The translations under genes and the position numbers were made by a program. A model generated the notes under the pieces. That model saw only the letters and a program-made list of their open reading frames with translations, ran no database searches and was not told the origin of the DNA. This document shows positions 302-61,838 of a stretch of 61,838 nt of DNA, piece by piece. The first letter of the stretch is position 1, and each line of letters starts with the position of its first letter. Origin of the DNA: Cohaesibacter sp. (GTDB lineage Bacteria; Pseudomonadota; Alphaproteobacteria; Rhizobiales; Cohaesibacteraceae); assembly GCA_025800145.1 (NCBI GenBank), contig JAOXSH010000081.1:1-61838 (forward strand), given 5' to 3'.

Positions 302-483
302 ATACCAACGGCATGAAAGATTGACCCATAGGATGCCTTGAAATGGTTTAATGGCAAGGCGTCTTTCGACGGACAATGCCGGGGCATTTTCCTAGAAAGA
401 CAACGCAGCTCAGTGAGCCATTCCAAGGCACCGAAAGCCGATAAAATCCGGTCATATGGGTTAATTTTTCATGCCGTTGGTAT
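302..483. mobile_element. Palindromic MITE-like element, short form (copy A)
   Basis: The element is bounded by ATACCAACGGCATGAAA at 302 and its inverted copy ending at 483. The inverted repeats run about 29 bp with two mismatches. Internal inverted repeats (335-340 with 424-429, and 361-367 with 395-401) let the whole unit fold into one long branched hairpin. It has no coding capacity. It ends 10 bp past the phoB stop and could act as its terminator. A longer copy lies at 26544-26806 and a truncated one at 61701-61838. Copy A lacks the roughly 80 bp extra hairpin arm of the long form. Confidence 0.85.
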
Positions 484-10787: not shown

Positions 10788-11420
10788 ATGTTTGATGCCA
10801 AATTGCGACGCCTGATTGATCCCCCCATGAATCAAATGGGACAGACCATGGTCTCATGGGGCATTTCCGCCAATCAGGTGACAAGCTGCGGGCTTGGTTT
10901 GGGGGCGCTTGCCGCTCTTCTCATTTCCCAACAATTTTATATCTGGGGCTTGATCTTTCTGCTTCTCAGTCGTCTCATGGATGGGCTGGATGGCGCTGTG
11001 GCCCGCGCCAGCCAAAAAACAGATCTGGGCGGTTATCTCGATATTGTCTTTGACTTTATTTTTTACGGCCTGATTCCCTTCAGCTTTGCTTTTGCGGACC
11101 CGGCACAAAATGCTCTGGCGGCCTGCCTGTTGCTGATGGCGTTTTACGCCAATGGGGCCAGCTTTCTGGCCTATGCGATCATGGCAGAGAAAAGAGGAAT
11201 CTCGACCCAGAGCCATGGCTCCAAATCCCTCTATTTCACCGGAGGCCTAGCTGAAGCTGGCGAAACCTTTGCTGTTTTTGCAGCCTTTTGCCTGTTCCCC
11301 ACAGCCTTTGCATGGATTGCCTATGGCTTTGCCGCTATCACTGCGATAACAACCATCTCACGCATTGCACTTGCCATGCAGGTCTTTCGGGATCTGCCCG
11401 ATCAAGACGCAGATCACTAG
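10788..11420 (+). CDS. CDP-alcohol phosphatidyltransferase family membrane protein
   Basis: Integral membrane enzyme of 210 aa with five or six hydrophobic helices. The CDP-alcohol phosphotransferase motif is intact: DGLDGAVARA, then GGYLDIVFDF, giving D-G-x2-A-R-x8-G-x3-D-x3-D with the metal-binding aspartates. Such enzymes move a phospho-alcohol from a CDP-linked donor (phospholipid head-group or glycerophosphate synthesis). The acceptor cannot be deduced. The gene is divergent from apaG. Its TAG stop is part of a CTAG that forms the left edge of a palindromic repeat. Confidence 0.85.
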   Translation: MFDAKLRRLIDPPMNQMGQTMVSWGISANQVTSCGLGLGALAALLISQQFYIWGLIFLLLSRLMDGLDGAVARASQKTDLGGYLDIVFDFIFYGLIPFSFAFADPAQNALAACLLLMAFYANGASFLAYAIMAEKRGISTQSHGSKSLYFTGGLAEAGETFAVFAAFCLFPTAFAWIAYGFAAITAITTISRIALAMQVFRDLPDQDADH

Positions 11421-11523
11421 AGCATTTTGAATAAACACGTTGTTATTCAAAATGCTCTAGTCTTTGTTTCTAAGCATATTTTTGTCCGAAAACCGCACAC
11501 ACTTTTCGAAAAATATGCTCTAA
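11417..11523. repeat. Composite palindromic repeat of two hairpins, copy 1
   Basis: Two palindromes stand side by side. The first (11421-11456, AGCATTTTGAATAA arms) is flanked by CTAG on both sides. After TCTTTGTTT comes the second (AGCATATTTTTGTCCG arms, to about 11519). The same pair occurs in inverted orientation at 54114-54220 with only a few changes. The left CTAG includes the TAG stop of the preceding gene. The hairpins may terminate transcription. Confidence 0.85.
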
Positions 11524-26057: not shown

Positions 26058-26836
26058 CTAATCTTGTGCCAGATTAGGAGACCATGCTGCGGTCTGGAAC
26101 ACGGCATCTGTCTCGGTACTTGCGACATGATTGGTATAATTGGACAAAACCTTATAGGCAGTGCCCAAAATGACCTCCAGAACGGTCTGGCGGCTATAAC
26201 CGACAGCAAGCAGAGCCTCAATCGAGGACTCTTTGGGCCAGCCACGGCTCTCATTGATCTCAATGGCAAATTGCCGCAGGGCTTCCAACTTGGGATCTTG
26301 AATAGATTGATTGGTCCGCAAAGCCTCAATCACATCCTCCGGCACTCCGCCTTTTTTTGCGATCACACTATGAGCGGCCATACAATAGGTGCAGCCATTC
26401 AAGCGGTTGTTGCTCATAGCAATAATCTGCCGTTCAGTCTCTGATAGCGATGTTGTTGCAAAGATCTTGGATAAGCTCAGATAAGCATCCAGCAAAGCAG
26501 GGCTCTCTGCCATATTACCCAGCAAATTGGGCACAAATCCATTATACCAACGGCATAAAAGATTGACCCATAGGATGCTTTGAAATGGTTTACTGAGAAG
26601 GTATCTTTCGACGGACAATGCCGGGGTATTTTCCTAGAAAGATAACGCTCTCAGTGAGCCATTTCAAAGCACCGAAGGCCGGTTTTATTGGCTTTCTGGA
26701 CTGCGTCGCTCTTGCTTTATGGTCAACCAGACCATCACAGCAAAAGCTTCTTACCAGAAAGCCAATAAAATTCGTCATATGGGTTAATCTTTCAGGCCGT
26801 TGGTATCAGCGTACCAGACCATTCCTCAACAACCAT
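26058..26836 (-). pseudogene. Carboxymuconolactone decarboxylase/AhpD-like gene split by a MITE-like insertion
   Basis: The 3' part (26058-26543) encodes an AhpD-like protein from GFVPNLLGNMAESPALLDAY through the redox motif CTYCMAAHSVIA to the stop. Such proteins are alkylhydroperoxidase-type disulfide reductases or decarboxylases. Just before NGFVPN the frame enters the 263-bp element at 26544-26806. Beyond the element, an ATG at 26836 with a strong GGGAGG site gives ten codons (MVVEEWSGTL). Removing exactly 26544-26806 joins these in frame to NGFVPNLLG. The current frame can be read only from a TTG inside the element, so the product is probably lost or altered. Confidence 0.7.
26544..26806. 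mobile_element. Palindromic MITE-like element, long form (copy B)
   Basis: A 263-bp unit with the same ends as copy A (ATACCAACGGC... and ...GCCGTTGGTAT) plus an extra arm. That arm has a perfect 17-bp stem (26683-26699 with 26754-26770) and a smaller hairpin inside it. It carries no coding capacity. It lies within the start region of the carboxymuconolactone decarboxylase-like gene. Base pairs at 26579/26668 and 26603/26643 differ from copy A but stay paired. Confidence 0.88.
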
Positions 26837-45505: not shown

Positions 45506-45549
45506 GTGTTTCAAAGGCCCTTTTTAAAGCTTTCTATGTCAAGTCGGGA

Positions 45550-45578
45550 TCACCAAAATGTGTATCACATCACAGTGA
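45550..45578. promoter_or_regulatory. 29-bp dyad operator, copy 1
   Basis: TCAC, four bases, ATGTG, TAT, CACAT, four bases, GTGA. The same conserved pattern precedes all three small secreted genes, here 139 bp from its ATG. Its symmetry and conservation suggest binding of a dimeric regulator. Confidence 0.65.
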
Positions 45579-45716
45579 GGATTTTTAATAAGGCTCTGCA
45601 CTCCAACGTGAATTCAGTTTACTAGACTAATTGGTTCCCAATCATTAAGTTAGGATCATCGAAAGACAAAGACCTCTTGATGATCTTTAAAACTGAACTT
45701 GAAAAGGAACTGTGAC

Positions 45717-46007
45717 ATGAAAAAACTTGCTCTTACTCTGACCCTTCTTGCTGTTGCCTCTGGCGCACAGGCTATGACCTCCAGCACCATTGACAGCTCC
45801 CAGCATTCCGCCTCTCAGCTGCAACGCATCATTCAGCAGCAGGGCAGCGCCATTGTCAGCACCGGCCCCGGCTTGTTTGACCGTTATGTTGCCAATGGCT
45901 CGCATTGTGGTCTTGGTCAGGAAACCCGCGCCGCCTTTGTTGCGACCGCTGATTCAAACAATGGTTTTGTTGGCTATACCTGCGTCTTTGATAGCGACGA
46001 AAGCTAA
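45717..46007 (+). CDS. Small secreted cysteine-containing protein, paralogue 1
   Basis: 96 aa from MKKLALTLTLLAVASGAQA, a typical signal peptide. The mature protein is about 77 aa with two Cys, in NGSHCGLGQ and VGYTCVF, probably forming a disulfide. It has the core phrase GPGLFDRYVANGSHC and ends acidic (DSDES). I recognise the DRYV...HC...VGYxC pattern from uncharacterised small exported proteins in this bacterial order, but no function is known. Paralogue 3 (46893) differs by a single residue. The 5' leader can fold GATCATC (45654) with GATGATC (45679). Confidence 0.8.
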   Translation: MKKLALTLTLLAVASGAQAMTSSTIDSSQHSASQLQRIIQQQGSAIVSTGPGLFDRYVANGSHCGLGQETRAAFVATADSNNGFVGYTCVFDSDES

Positions 46008-46047
46008 GATTTCGCCAATTCTCTAATCCATGCTGTAATGGCATTTC

Positions 46048-46102
46048 AAAGCTCTCCACCATAGCATTGGACATGTGTTCAAGCTCTGGTGGGGAGCTTT
46101 TG
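46048..46102 (+). terminator. Intrinsic terminator of paralogue 1
   Basis: AAAGCTCTCCACCA and TGGTGGGGAGCTTTT pair across a loop of about 25 nt and end in a T-rich tract. The same structure follows paralogues 2 and 3. Confidence 0.75.
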
Positions 46103-46132
46103 TTTTATCGGGAGCTTTTCCAAGGGCTGCTT

Positions 46133-46161
46133 TCACCCAAATGTGTATCACATTTGGGTGA
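46133..46161. promoter_or_regulatory. 29-bp dyad operator, copy 2 (perfect palindrome)
   Basis: TCACCCAAATGTG and its exact inverse CACATTTGGGTGA flank TAT, giving 13-bp perfect arms. It lies 123 bp before the ATG of paralogue 2. It is the most symmetric of the three copies. Confidence 0.7.
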
Positions 46162-46283
46162 TGGGTATCATTGTCAGGCAGCACTGCAACGTGAACGCAG
46201 TTTACTGGATCAGGCGACTTTGAGTTTTTAAACTGGATGACAAGATCAACCACCCCCTTCCCTGACTTATGAGGACCTGTGCT

Positions 46284-46586
46284 ATGAAAAAACTTGTTCT
46301 TTTGCTTTCCTTGATCGCTGCCGCTTCCCTTGCCTCTGGTGCGCAGGCTATGACGCCCAAAACCTTCACCAGTACCAAACATTCAACATCGCAATTGCAG
46401 AGCATTGTCAAACAACATGGCGCTGTTATTTTGAGAACCAGCTCCAGTACGTTTGATCGCTATGTCGCCAACCGTTCGCATTGCAGCTCCAGCCAACGCA
46501 CCAAGGTTGCTTATGTGCCGACCGCTGATTCCAGCAATGGCTTCATTGGTTATCGCTGTGTCGATAAAGGCGACAAGTCCAAATAA
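46284..46586 (+). CDS. Small secreted cysteine-containing protein, paralogue 2
   Basis: 100 aa from MKKLVLLLSLIAAASLASGA (signal peptide, cut after AQA). The mature part follows the same plan as paralogues 1 and 3 (TFDRYVANRSHC, then IGYRCVDKG) with the two Cys conserved. It is otherwise clearly diverged, and its tail is basic rather than acidic (KGDKSK). Its leader lacks the GATCATC hairpin of the other two but keeps the dyad operator and a similar terminator. Confidence 0.8.
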   Translation: MKKLVLLLSLIAAASLASGAQAMTPKTFTSTKHSTSQLQSIVKQHGAVILRTSSSTFDRYVANRSHCSSSQRTKVAYVPTADSSNGFIGYRCVDKGDKSK

Positions 46587-46631
46587 TCTGATGCCGGATC
46601 GCACGATCTGGCCATAGAAATATCTCCATAT

Positions 46632-46692
46632 AAAGCCCTCCACCATGGCATTTGGCAGGCACTGTGCTGGCCTTTCTGGTGGGGGGCTTTTT
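46632..46692 (+). terminator. Intrinsic terminator of paralogue 2
   Basis: AAAGCCCTCCACCA pairs with TGGTGGGGGGCTTTTT. Both arms differ from the paralogue 1 terminator in step (GCTC/GAGC becomes GCCC/GGGC), so pairing is kept. Confidence 0.75.
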
Positions 46693-46725
46693 GTGTTTTC
46701 AAGACCTGTTTTTGTCAAGCCATCG

Positions 46726-46754
46726 TCACCAAAATGTGTATCACATGATAGTGA
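46726..46754. promoter_or_regulatory. 29-bp dyad operator, copy 3
   Basis: TCAC, CAAA, ATGTG, TAT, CACAT, GATA, GTGA. It sits 139 bp before the ATG of paralogue 3, the same distance as copy 1. Confidence 0.65.
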
Positions 46755-46892
46755 AAAATTTCTCTAACTCGCTGCACTCCAACGTGAATTCAGTTTACTG
46801 GACTGATTGGTTCTCAAGTCTTAAGTTAGGATCATCGAAAGACAAAGACCTTTTGATGATCTTTAAAACTGAACTTGAAAAGGAACTGTGAC

Positions 46893-47183
46893 ATGAAAAA
46901 ACTTGCTCTTACTCTGACCCTTCTTGCTGTTGCCTCTGGCGCACAGGCTATGACCTCCAACACCATTGACAGCTCCCAGCATTCCGCCTCTCAGCTGCAA
47001 CGCATCATTCAGCAGCAGGGCAGCGCCATTGTCAGCACCGGCCCCGGCTTGTTTGATCGTTATGTTGCCAATGGCTCGCATTGTGGTCTTGGTCAGGAAA
47101 CCCGCGCCGCCTTTGTTGCGACCGCTGATTCAAACAATGGCTTTGTTGGCTATACCTGTGTTTTTGATAGCGACGAAAGCTAA
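46893..47183 (+). CDS. Small secreted cysteine-containing protein, paralogue 3
   Basis: 96 aa, identical to paralogue 1 except for Asn in place of Ser in the AMTSNTIDSS segment. The upstream 140 bp, including the GATCATC (46830)/GATGATC (46855) leader hairpin, is also almost identical. This points to a recent duplication or gene conversion across the more diverged paralogue 2. Signal peptide and two-Cys pattern are the same. Its terminator extends into the end of the converging maiA gene. Confidence 0.8.
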   Translation: MKKLALTLTLLAVASGAQAMTSNTIDSSQHSASQLQRIIQQQGSAIVSTGPGLFDRYVANGSHCGLGQETRAAFVATADSNNGFVGYTCVFDSDES

Positions 47184-47225
47184 GATCCCTTTCAATCACT
47201 AACCTATGCTTTTCAAAAGCATCTC

Positions 47226-47281
47226 AAAGCTCTCCACCATAGCATTTGACATGTGTTCAAGCTCTGGTGGGAGCTTTTTTT
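47226..47281 (+). terminator. Intrinsic terminator of paralogue 3, overlapping the maiA 3' end
   Basis: AAAGCTCTCCACCA pairs with TGGTGGGAGCTTTTTTT. The right arm lies within the last codons of maiA on the other strand, so one hairpin serves both convergent units in part. Confidence 0.75.
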
Positions 47282-47922
47282 ATTGGGGTTTCAAAGGGTG
47301 CATCTGACTGATGTTCCGGCATGGCTTTTTGAAAAGCCTCAAGAGCGAGACAGTTTTTTTCAATGTCTAATAGTCGGACAAAGGGGCCAAGATCCATGCG
47401 CCAGCGATGGGCGTTATAAAGCTGGGGGATCAGGCAAATATCGGCAAGGCTAGGGGCATCGCCAAAGCAAAAGCGGTTGTCTTTCTCGATCAGGGTCTGA
47501 AAAGCCGCAAAGCCTTCCTGCATCCAGTGACGCATCCAGTTTTCCAGCTCGTTTTGGTCATGGCCCATGGCTTTGAGCCGCGCCCCAACCCGCAAATTGT
47601 TGACCGGGTGAATATCGCAGGCAATGATATGACTGGCGGCGCGGATTTTGGCGGCCCGCAGCGGATCATCATTCACAAAAGGCGCGCTTTTGATGGTTGC
47701 ATCCAGATAATCGAGGATGGCCATGGATTGGGTCAGGATGGTGCCATCATCCAGCTGCAAGCTGGGCACCCCGGCCATGGGATTGATGGCTCGATAGGCT
47801 GCACTTTTCTGTTCACCCTTGAGTAGATTGACGGCAATGATGTCATGATCCACTTGCTTGAGATTGAGCGCAATGCGCAAGCGATAAGAGGTTGTTGAGC
47901 GCCAATAGGAATAGAGTTTCAT
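47257..47922 (-). CDS. maiA: Maleylacetoacetate isomerase
   Basis: 221-aa zeta-class glutathione S-transferase. The N-terminus [20 protein letters not shown] contains the SSxxxR-type motif (here RSTTSYR) typical of zeta GSTs, followed by [20 protein letters not shown]. It isomerises maleylacetoacetate to fumarylacetoacetate in tyrosine/homogentisate breakdown, using glutathione. It overlaps hmgA by 4 bp. Its last residues (KKAPTRA) are encoded by the terminator arm of the converging gene, so its C-terminus may have been changed by that neighbour. Fumarylacetoacetase is not in the window. Confidence 0.92.
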
Positions 47923-52109: not shown

Positions 52110-54117
52110 TCTGTCCCAACAAGGCTTGCCTGCCGGGCCGGTGATCAAGGGCAAGCTCAGTCGTGATGACATCATCATGCGCGGCGGCATGATTGTCATT
52201 GCGCTCTATCTAATCGTCTCCATGGTGATGCCGCTCTATGCTATGTTGTCCAAATCCTTTTCCACCTATCATGTGGATTTGAGCCAATATGAATTTCAGC
52301 AAAGCGACAAGGATGGCGTCTTTGATGGAACAAGCCTGAGCGGCGCGCAGCTCAATAGCCAGATCCCGGTTTATGCGCCAAAGGATCTCAATACCGGAGC
52401 CGATGGCCGCTTGTCGGTGACCAAATGGTTCCCTGATTTCAGCTTCCGTAGTCCGGTGAAATATCGGCTGCGCAATGTCTCGCCCAACGGTCGCTTTCTG
52501 GTCAGCTCGACGCTTTATACCGGAACAGACTGGGTAGAGCTTGATTCCAACAAATTCCGCCGGGTGCAATTGCGCCCGATCAAAACCACCGGGCTTGGCA
52601 ATTTTGTCAATTATTTCTCAACGCCAGCTCTGTTCCAGTCGATCAAAAATTCGCTTTGGATTTCGGTGGTTAGCACTGTGATCACAGTCACGCTGGCTTT
52701 CTGGTTTGCCTATGCGCTGAACAGAAGTTGCATCCGCTATAAGGGTCTGTTCCGGCTGGTGGCCATGGCGCCGATTCTGGTCCCGTCTTTGTTGCCCGGC
52801 ATTGCGCTGGTCTATTTGTTTGGCAATCAGGGCATGATCAAGGAATTGCTCTTTGGGGCCAGCATTTATGGGCCGATCGGCATCATTATCGGCTCGGTCT
52901 TTTTCACCTTCCCCCATGCCTTTTTGATCATTTCAACGGCGCTGGCCATTTCGGATGCGCGGCTTTATGAGGCGGCAACCAGTTTGCGAACCTCGTCCTG
53001 GCGGACCTTTTGGACGGTGACCATTCCCGGTGCCCGTTATGGCCTGATCTCGGCGGCTTTTGTGGTTTTCAATCTGGTGATCACCGATTTTGGCTTGCCC
53101 AAAGTGATTGGCGGCCAGTTCAATGTGCTGGCGGTGGACATCTATAAGCAGGTGATTGGCCAACAGAATTTTGAAATGGGGGCCGTGGTTTCTGTCGTGC
53201 TGGTGATCCCTGCCATTCTGGCCTTTGCCATTGACCGCTTTGTGCAATCCAAGCAAGTGGCGCTGCTCTCGGCACGCTCGGTGCCGTTTCAGCCGCAACC
53301 GGACGAAAAGCGTGATAGAGCTCTCTTTGCCTATTGCAGTCTGGTTGCTGTGTTCATCATTGGCTTGCTGGCTGTGTGTCAATTTGCGGCTCTGGTGAAA
53401 TTCTGGCCTTATGATTTGAGCCTGAGCCTGACCAATTATCAGTTTGATAAAATGGATGGCGGCGGTTGGGGGTCTTACTTCAATTCCATCCAAATGGCCT
53501 TAATTGTGGCGGTGATTGGCACTGGTGTGGTGTTTTTCGGGGCCTATCTGGTGGAGAAATCCAACGGCTTTAAAATTGGTCGCGGCCTGTTTCAGATGGT
53601 GGCCATGCTGCCCATGGCCATTCCGGGGATGGTGTTGGGTCTGGCCTATATCTTCTTTTTCAACAATCCGGCCAATCCGCTCAATATGCTCTATGGCACC
53701 ATGGCGATTTTGGTGATTTGTACCGTGACTCACTTTTACACGGTCTCGCACCTCACCGCCGTGACAGCGCTTAAACAAATGGATCGGGAATTTGAATCGG
53801 TGTCCGCCTCGCTCAAACAGCCCACCATGAAGCTGTTTAGTCGGGTGACCGTGCCGGTTTGCCTGCCATCGGTTTTGGATATTTCCATCTATCTGTTCGT
53901 CAATGCCATGACGACGGTCTCGGCTGTGGTGTTCCTCTATTCACCAAAAACAACACTGGCCTCTATCGCTGTGTTGAATATGGATGATGCAGGCGACATT
54001 GCTCCAGCTGCGGCCATGGGGATGATGATTTTCTATACCAATGCCGCGGCAAGGATCATCCATCTGGTCATATCCAAAGGGGTGTTGACCCGGACCCAAG
54101 CTTGGCGTTTCCGCTAG
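52102..54117 (+). CDS. 2-aminoethylphosphonate-type ABC transporter permease, fused double permease
   Basis: About 671 aa from MTDLSQQGLPAGP. Two six-helix permease modules are fused. The first EAA-type loop is YEAATSLRTSSWRTFWTVTI and the second FESVSASLKQPTMKLFSRVT. A large extracytoplasmic insert of about 120 residues separates the first helix from the rest of module 1 (QYEFQQSDKDGVFDGTSLSG onward), as in the PhnU-like family. It forms the whole membrane channel by itself. The TAG stop lies in a CTAG that starts a palindromic repeat. Confidence 0.88.
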   Translation: MTDLSQQGLPAGPVIKGKLSRDDIIMRGGMIVIALYLIVSMVMPLYAMLSKSFSTYHVDLSQYEFQQSDKDGVFDGTSLSGAQLNSQIPVYAPKDLNTGADGRLSVTKWFPDFSFRSPVKYRLRNVSPNGRFLVSSTLYTGTDWVELDSNKFRRVQLRPIKTTGLGNFVNYFSTPALFQSIKNSLWISVVSTVITVTLAFWFAYALNRSCIRYKGLFRLVAMAPILVPSLLPGIALVYLFGNQGMIKELLFGASIYGPIGIIIGSVFFTFPHAFLIISTALAISDARLYEAATSLRTSSWRTFWTVTIPGARYGLISAAFVVFNLVITDFGLPKVIGGQFNVLAVDIYKQVIGQQNFEMGAVVSVVLVIPAILAFAIDRFVQSKQVALLSARSVPFQPQPDEKRDRALFAYCSLVAVFIIGLLAVCQFAALVKFWPYDLSLSLTNYQFDKMDGGGWGSYFNSIQMALIVAVIGTGVVFFGAYLVEKSNGFKIGRGLFQMVAMLPMAIPGMVLGLAYIFFFNNPANPLNMLYGTMAILVICTVTHFYTVSHLTAVTALKQMDREFESVSASLKQPTMKLFSRVTVPVCLPSVLDISIYLFVNAMTTVSAVVFLYSPKTTLASIAVLNMDDAGDIAPAAAMGMMIFYTNAAARIIHLVISKGVLTRTQAWRFR

Positions 54118-54220
54118 AGCATATTTTTCGAAAAGTGCGTGCAGTTTTCGGACAAAAATATGCTTAGAAACAAAGGCTAGAGCATTTTGCATAACGACGT
54201 GTTTATTCAAAATGCTCTAG
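54114..54220. repeat. Composite palindromic repeat of two hairpins, copy 2 (inverted relative to copy 1)
   Basis: The reverse complement closely matches 11417-11523: an AGCATATTTTTCG palindrome, the spacer TTAGAAACAAAGGCTAG, then an AGCATTTTGCATAA palindrome flanked by CTAG on both sides. The left CTAG carries the stop codon of the permease gene. It is non-coding and may terminate transcription. Confidence 0.85.
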
Positions 54221-61700: not shown

Positions 61701-61838
61701 ATACCAACGAGCAGAAATAATGACCCATATGACCGGATTTTCTGGGTTTTCTGGTAAGGAGCTTTTGCTGCCATGGTCTGGCTGACCACAAAGCAAGAGC
61801 GACGCAGTCCAGAAGGCCCAGAAAACCGGCCTTCGGTG
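61701..61838. mobile_element. Palindromic MITE-like element, long form (copy C), cut by the window edge
   Basis: It starts ATACCAACGAGCAGAAA and runs in the opposite orientation to copy B. It includes the extra arm (61738-61754 pairing with 61809-61825) and the inner loop with GCTTTTGCTG and AAGCAAGAGC. The arm differs from copy B at several bases but remains paired, with two full compensations and two G-T pairs. The window ends inside the element. It is non-coding. Confidence 0.85.

Follow-up and report, generated by a model that had tools for sequence, protein, structure and literature searches.

A two-hairpin, MITE-like repeat family of Cohaesibacter and other Pseudomonadota with covarying stems and mirrored wobble polarity in its inner helices

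The window analysed here, a 61,838-nt stretch of DNA that constitutes one contig of a 3.44-Mb, 161-contig genome of Cohaesibacter sp., carries copies of a palindromic element in whose stems paired bases differ together between copies. Is the fold of this element maintained, as a structured RNA or as a hairpin of single-stranded DNA, or are its arms copied from each other? The original prediction named these possibilities and argued for a maintained fold on the ground that decay of dead copies would break pairs instead. The features in question are the following, where R2 denotes a covariance model and A2 an alignment, both described below.

26544..26806, + strand: complete two-hairpin (A+B) element, 263 nt, with inverted ends; R2 218.8 bits, model positions 1-264 of 264
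26544..26572, + strand: left terminal inverted repeat, 29 nt, ATACCAACG...ACCCATA (pattern match)
26576..26596, + strand: 5' arm of the outer stem of hairpin A (own-genome alignment; helix 2 of the A2 structure)
26602..26609, + strand: 5' arm of the inner helix of hairpin A, which has the strongest G·U over A·C bias of the family
26637..26644, + strand: 3' arm of the inner helix of hairpin A
26651..26671, + strand: 3' arm of the outer stem of hairpin A (own-genome alignment)
26683..26770, + strand: hairpin B, with outer arms 26683-26699 and 26754-26770 (own-genome alignment)
26778..26806, - strand: right terminal inverted repeat, 29 nt (pattern match)
302..483, + strand: shortened copy with both ends and hairpin A, hairpin B being mostly deleted (R2 134.3 bits)
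61701..61838, - strand: copy cut by the end of the window, with terminal repeat 61701-61729 and hairpin B from 61734 (R2 116.1 bits; the match covers model positions 128-264 and is cut at the 5' side)

Four pairs had been cited as changing together, and all eight base combinations are read correctly: C337-G427 corresponds to T26579-A26668, G361-C401 to A26603-T26643, A26687-T26766 to C61742-G61821, and T26689-A26764 to G61744-C61819. We counted these pairs across the copies of the own genome, using one best row per locus (62 rows for hairpin A, 59 for hairpin B) and leaving out second copies within one locus as well as the overlapping loci L021-L050. Pair 337/427 is CG in 26, TA in 13, TG in 9 and CA in 7 of the 55 rows with both letters (Fisher p = 0.009), corresponding to 7 broken and 9 wobble copies. 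Pair 361/401 comprises GC 35, AT 18, GT 3, AC 3 and two others; pair A26687-T26766 comprises AT 48, CG 5 and four broken; pair T26689-A26764 comprises TA 51, GC 6 and two broken. Three of the four cited pairs, namely all other than 337/427, look like one subfamily change each, and within the own genome the four are weak evidence that goes beyond chance only modestly. Nor does the argument from decay hold, as broken pairs are what the own-genome copies show: the rare stem states (present in at most three copies each, each state counted once) consist of 18 G·U, 16 A·C, 27 other mismatches and 4 Watson-Crick pairs. The ratio of 18:16 is unbiased and therefore gives no sign of selection on individual copies; recent change looks neutral. 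The strong evidence for the fold comes from related elements in other genomes; a maintained fold is supported for the family, on family-wide covariation, and not on the few changes originally cited.

The own genome is rich in copies. The end pattern of the element has 150 exact matches (238 with at most one mismatch), and loose patterns detect 43 cores of hairpin A and 58 of hairpin B; the end pattern is present in only 3 of the 18 genomes of the genus. The 100 own-genome loci L071-L170 include 43 complete elements, which span 140-332 nt and form a modular series. Its commonest forms consist of A alone or B alone (about 161-163 nt). Further forms are A+B (263-267 nt), A with a 57-nt third module at a CTAG (215-219 nt), A with this module and B (320-332 nt), and forms with a duplicated module (275 and 284 nt). 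The 57-nt module has an inner palindrome (ATTGAATTGTC AAGACAATTCAAT) and is found at the CTAG on the loop side of hairpin A (L081, L084, L155, L161, L117); in L161 (275 nt) and L117 (284 nt) it is tandemly duplicated, giving an element nested in an element. Among the 43 complete copies the two end types are clearly different in one (L167), L149 has one altered end, and the right end of L085 is a patchwork, its outer part being of one type and its inner part of the other. Truncated copies occur as well: L119 resembles a deletion product in which the A loop is fused to the element end at a shared CCG, whereas L164-L166 retain one end and a few bases beyond. With 263 nt, 29-nt terminal inverted repeats, many copies and no transposase gene, the element has the features of a MITE. 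MITEs are usually regarded as shrunken remnants of insertion sequences.

Relatives are found in other genera, families and classes. A BLAST search with a copy from a second genus member (G002) matched 4 of 20 genomes of the family, with full copies in G002 and in G018, a genome of a different genus. A second G002 copy matched 24 of 397 genomes of the order (17 of 141 genera), three of them over only 37-47 nt and perhaps by chance. Apart from these short matches, the order relatives examined have the same hairpin B, and hairpin A where they are long enough; their ends differ and mostly start with AGAGC beside T or CT. The covariance model R1 matches 42 of 385 genomes of the class (36 of 277 genera) and 39 of 398 genomes of the phylum (30 of 213 genera), some of them in families beyond the class; the class and phylum counts rest on R1 and include some genomes with partial matches only. 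At most five candidates were scored per genome, and copy numbers are therefore lower bounds. A set of 146 elements was drawn from the R1 genome matches and earlier loci, leaving out long or insert-bearing loci (L052, L072, L120, L137, L147, L236), L251 (160 nt), the window copies and partial matches. Element length is 259-275 nt in 144 of the 146, with a median of 265. Over 24 nt, the two ends of one element are 93% identical, with 108 of the 146 elements reaching 90% or more; left ends agree in 39% between elements and fall into 79 clusters at 75% identity. None of 17 loci (4 + 13) compared with Rfam gave a match at gathering score, five scores being at chance level (E 0.13-0.48), and BLAST found no match to the element on plasmids. 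The literature searched, with subscription papers mostly outside it, yielded no description of the present family.

Within the family the stems covary. Alignment A2 comprises 28 elements aligned by MAFFT without regard to structure, and its RNAalifold structure is derived from A2 itself. This structure pairs 89.9% of cells, compared to at most 43.1% when slid by 1-3 columns, has double changes in 74 of 108 pairs, and scores 0.525 (at most 0.141 slid, 0.172 shuffled). Model R2 was built on the A2 structure; it differs from R1 by a one-column shift in three helices, and most sequences that had no part in training score higher with it. Under R2, three or four Watson-Crick types are seen in most stem pairs. 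Covariation was tested against a tree-based null of our own implementation, modelled on R-scape (threshold E < 0.05). In a held-out set of 79 nonredundant elements 90 of 108 pairs are significant, versus 9 of 23,112 other column pairs, and in a 99-element set 97 of 108 versus 8 other column pairs, both in model-fitted alignments; the structure-blind A2 gives only 13 of 108 under the same null, versus 0 of 34,608. Branches of the A2 tree carry 170 double changes from one Watson-Crick pair to another, with two or more in 42 pairs. In the family, covariation hence exceeds what phylogeny predicts.

A further distinction is provided by wobble pairs. A G·U pair on one strand is an A·C on the other: copying, or identity kept at the DNA level, predicts equal numbers of both, whereas selection on a single strand favours G·U. 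In the terminal stem the G·U:A·C ratio is 109:107 (144 elements; other counts are 93:92 and 110:96, the latter under R2). The inner helix of hairpin A gives 92:13 under R2 and 86:7 with the register set by Watson-Crick count alone (134 of 146 elements). The matching helix of hairpin B, counted on the opposite strand, gives 92:4 under R2 and 83:3 by Watson-Crick register (123 of 129), and in nonredundant sets the inner helices yield 54:4 (A) and 52:1 (B). Seen on the + strand, forward pairs 92-97 of hairpin B, six of the seven helix pairs, have 5 G·U and 86 A·C. For the outer stems, strand-neutral helices give 102:27 in A (125 of 144) and 37:107 in B (135 of 144). The inner-helix bias keeps its direction whatever the end type (ATACC, AGAGC or other), as it does in 18 elements from beyond the class. 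Some counts run against the polarity, however. In 57 of 99 elements hairpin B has a G·T as its basal pair on the + strand. Under R2, the + strand counts are 169:131 for the whole B outer stem and 231:129 for the whole 18-pair B inner stretch, where four positions that pair poorly, pairs 91 and 99-101, supply 195 of the 231 G·U; the three pairs beside the B inner helix give 10:69 on the strand that this helix favours. The mirror polarity holds clearly in the inner helices and in the inner portions of the outer stems, but it does not extend to every pair. Strand-biased deamination is an alternative source of the bias, but no matching C>T bias is seen in the unpaired conserved columns, whose tendency, in small numbers, is opposite: C>T amounts to 2.3 per C column and G>A to 3.8 per G column in A, and to 2.7 and 1.0, respectively, in B.

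Hairpin B is similar to hairpin A in reverse complement, and the two are inverted relatives. In 129 of 146 elements a match to R2 exists on the opposite strand as well. With the ends removed, one half aligns with the inverted other half better than with shuffled sequence (mean score 3.2 versus -10.6), and the best shuffled score is exceeded in 47 of 144 elements. As the hairpins are inverted relatives with mirrored polarity, the favoured strand of each runs inward from its own end. The junction between the hairpins (~26670-26681, CACCGAAGGCC) ranks with the best-conserved unpaired segments of A2; its motif ACC[AG][AG]AGGCC occurs forward in 51 and reversed in 1 of the 146 elements and breaks the symmetry of the element.

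The possibilities named at the outset fare differently under these counts. Selection of the hairpins as single strands is supported by the inner helices (86:7 in A; 83:3 in B, on the other strand). A structured RNA of one strand, comprising the whole element, is disfavoured: a one-strand preference for G·U in all helices is not what we find, as the terminal stem is at parity (109:107) and hairpins A and B have opposite strand polarity. Copying between arms occurs as well. In L084, L095 and L144 the right arm reads ACCTT where other copies carry AACGCT, a tract that, including its change in length, is an exact complement of the left arm. Relatives conserve AACG, and the change in the right arm is therefore derived. 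L095 has in addition two T·G pairs turned into C-G. Arm copying contributes above all in the terminal repeats.

With respect to mobility, a loose test of the boundaries shows TA on both sides of 90 of 144 elements and on neither side of 28, and CTAG on both sides of 39. A candidate transposase is suggested by G475, a genome that carries the element, in which contig edges break at ATACCAA ends beside a protein C-terminus. Homologues of this C-terminus on plasmids are in part annotated as IS630 family transposase; the 39-residue fragment has no Pfam or NCBIfam match and owes its annotation to these homologues. Many G475 contigs (e.g. L341, L342, L357) break ~110 nt inside ATACCAA-ended repeats of two sequence types. 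Such breaks would be as expected for multi-copy insertion sequences, with only one of the two sequence types matching IS630. Both ends of the plasmid IS630 copies are seen in 8 of 16 loci, with lengths of 1,160-1,178 bp; the ends match at 14-19 of 24 positions (69% on average), and two of the loci have identical ends. The ends of 29 ATACC-ended two-hairpin elements match in 90.5%. Given the 69% of IS630, the transposase seems not to need such long identity. Ends are shared with IS630 by ATACC-ended members only; AGAGC and other end types have no linked transposase. As for an autonomous copy in the own genome, inspection by eye of 100 of the 150 ends, those listed, gave no inward-facing pair 1-2 kb apart, and an IS630 motif was absent from the own-genome loci scanned. 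In L054 and L198, a gene that we take to be an IS4-like transposase stands beside an ATACCAA-like end. It was considered as a partner and rejected, since it has its own inverted ends inside the adjoining ATACCAA-like end; we take it as a neighbour. L198:561-589 (G020, a distant alphaproteobacterial bin) is a lone ATACCAA...ACCCATA end adjoining this gene.

The reading that we prefer, and to which we would give roughly an even chance, is a non-autonomous, MITE-like, TA-inserting element whose hairpins come under selection in single-stranded form during its spread, acting as folded DNA rather than RNA. A transposase of the IS630/Tc1-mariner type would move the element in trans and insert it at TA. 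Each hairpin would act single-stranded, on the strand running 5' to 3' inward from its own end, and would be needed during spread, such that hairpins persist in source lineages while copies, once inserted, undergo neutral decay. The additional complementarity of the two ends may be kept at the DNA level by arm-to-arm copying, cruciform formation or both. Selection on the end-proximal hairpins probably acts during spread and not through any use to the host. More tentatively, and with somewhat less than even confidence, we propose for these phylum-wide non-autonomous elements that the folded single-stranded hairpin next to each end, on opposite strands, is recognised by an IS630-like system of the DDE type or by a host factor which that system uses. 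If this is true, shape and not sequence is preserved: stems and terminal repeats change freely while the 265-nt architecture persists.

There are three rival explanations. The hairpins may act as RNA, in that read-through transcripts from either flank fold the first hairpin met and thereby help the element or the host, for instance by binding a protein or by setting transcript stability. We consider this rather unlikely. An excess of G·U over A·C in the inner helices is an outcome of RNA selection, in each direction of transcription the well-paired hairpin is met first, and NEMIS, ERIC and other small repeats are described as acting in mRNA in the accessible part of one source (PMC2229807). 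Yet a single transcript predicts a polarity shared by both hairpins and the closing stem, and the polarity differs between them; the rare own-genome changes are unbiased (18:16), and promoter-like and terminator-like sites (3 and 1) are near their shuffled means (1.4 and 0.8). Folded DNA in the transposition/replication cycle, in itself an evenly balanced proposition, is what we favour over RNA used by the host, which we doubt, since the two strands are handled in the same way and individual copies seem to undergo neutral decay.

Arm-to-arm copying by template switching within palindromes might alone keep arms and ends complementary, with no selection on structure. As a sole cause it is improbable: copying gives no reason for a preference for G·U, which the inner helices show at 86:7 and 83:3, and conserved unpaired motifs persist beside the stems. 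What it does explain are the complementary right-arm tracts of L084, L095 and L144, the patchwork right end of L085, and terminal repeats that have no wobble bias (109:107) and whose match of 90.5% is far above the 69% of IS630. Common descent within a few subfamilies, finally, could mimic covariation, as seen in the own genome, where three of the four cited pairs behave as single subfamily changes. Covariation beyond the tree null implies that ancestry alone is no explanation, and we regard it as very improbable in view of the 90 of 108 pairs that exceed this null in the 79 held-out elements, the 170 Watson-Crick double changes on branches (two or more in 42 pairs) and the three or four Watson-Crick types of most stem pairs.

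Among known systems, insertion sequences of the IS630 family share the ATACCAA termini, with TGA and AC-CA further in, but their copies are 1,160-1,178 bp long, contain a transposase gene and have ends that match in 69%. Structured RNAs in Rfam display covariation of a comparable kind; that of the element lacks a single strand polarity. RIME1 of rhizobia is ~108 nt long and has two palindromes. RIME and the Bru-RS of Brucella are, like the element, palindromic intergenic repeats of Hyphomicrobiales; the comparison is by description only, from partial sources, which list Bru-RS at 103-105 bp as opposed to ~265 nt here. The CIR repeats of Caulobacter and Brucella are likewise alphaproteobacterial intergenic repeats with two arms joined by a linker; in the accessible part of the source they are ~110 bp long, have no terminal inverted repeat and carry GANTC at the terminal loop (PMC2229807). 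The element, in contrast, has ~265 nt and long terminal repeats, and 90 of the 146 elements have no GANTC anywhere; its size, its ends and the GANTC count exclude it from the CIR repeats. Closest is RUP of Streptococcus pneumoniae, also a small non-autonomous intergenic repeat with IS630-family-like ends and TA at its termini. RUP is described, in the same partial source, as a MITE thought to be moved by IS630-Spn1, with 107 bp, a 9-bp inverted repeat and occurrence in one species (PMC2229807). The present element has ~265 nt, occurs in class- and phylum-wide samples and contains two conserved internal hairpins. By analogy it may work like an IS630-dependent MITE such as RUP, and the family could be read as a variant of such MITEs that its two conserved end-proximal hairpins set apart from RUP.

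A single 265-nt architecture is thus maintained in samples spanning the class and the phylum, its stems covary strongly and its strand polarity is specific to the parts, which makes a role of folded DNA or RNA in the movement of TA-inserting transposons testable. Counting G·U versus A·C, where the terminal repeats supply a 1:1 control from within the element, offers an inexpensive and general way to separate selection on structure from arm copying in palindromic repeats.

We note two further repeats in the window. Positions 11417-11522 and 54115-54220 are an inverted pair, 95% complementary, of another CTAG-ended palindromic repeat, and L132 contains a stretch related to it inside a two-hairpin element. 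Positions 45521-47284 contain three diverged direct repeats at ~580-600 bp spacing, each with a short open stretch starting ATGAAAAAACTT.
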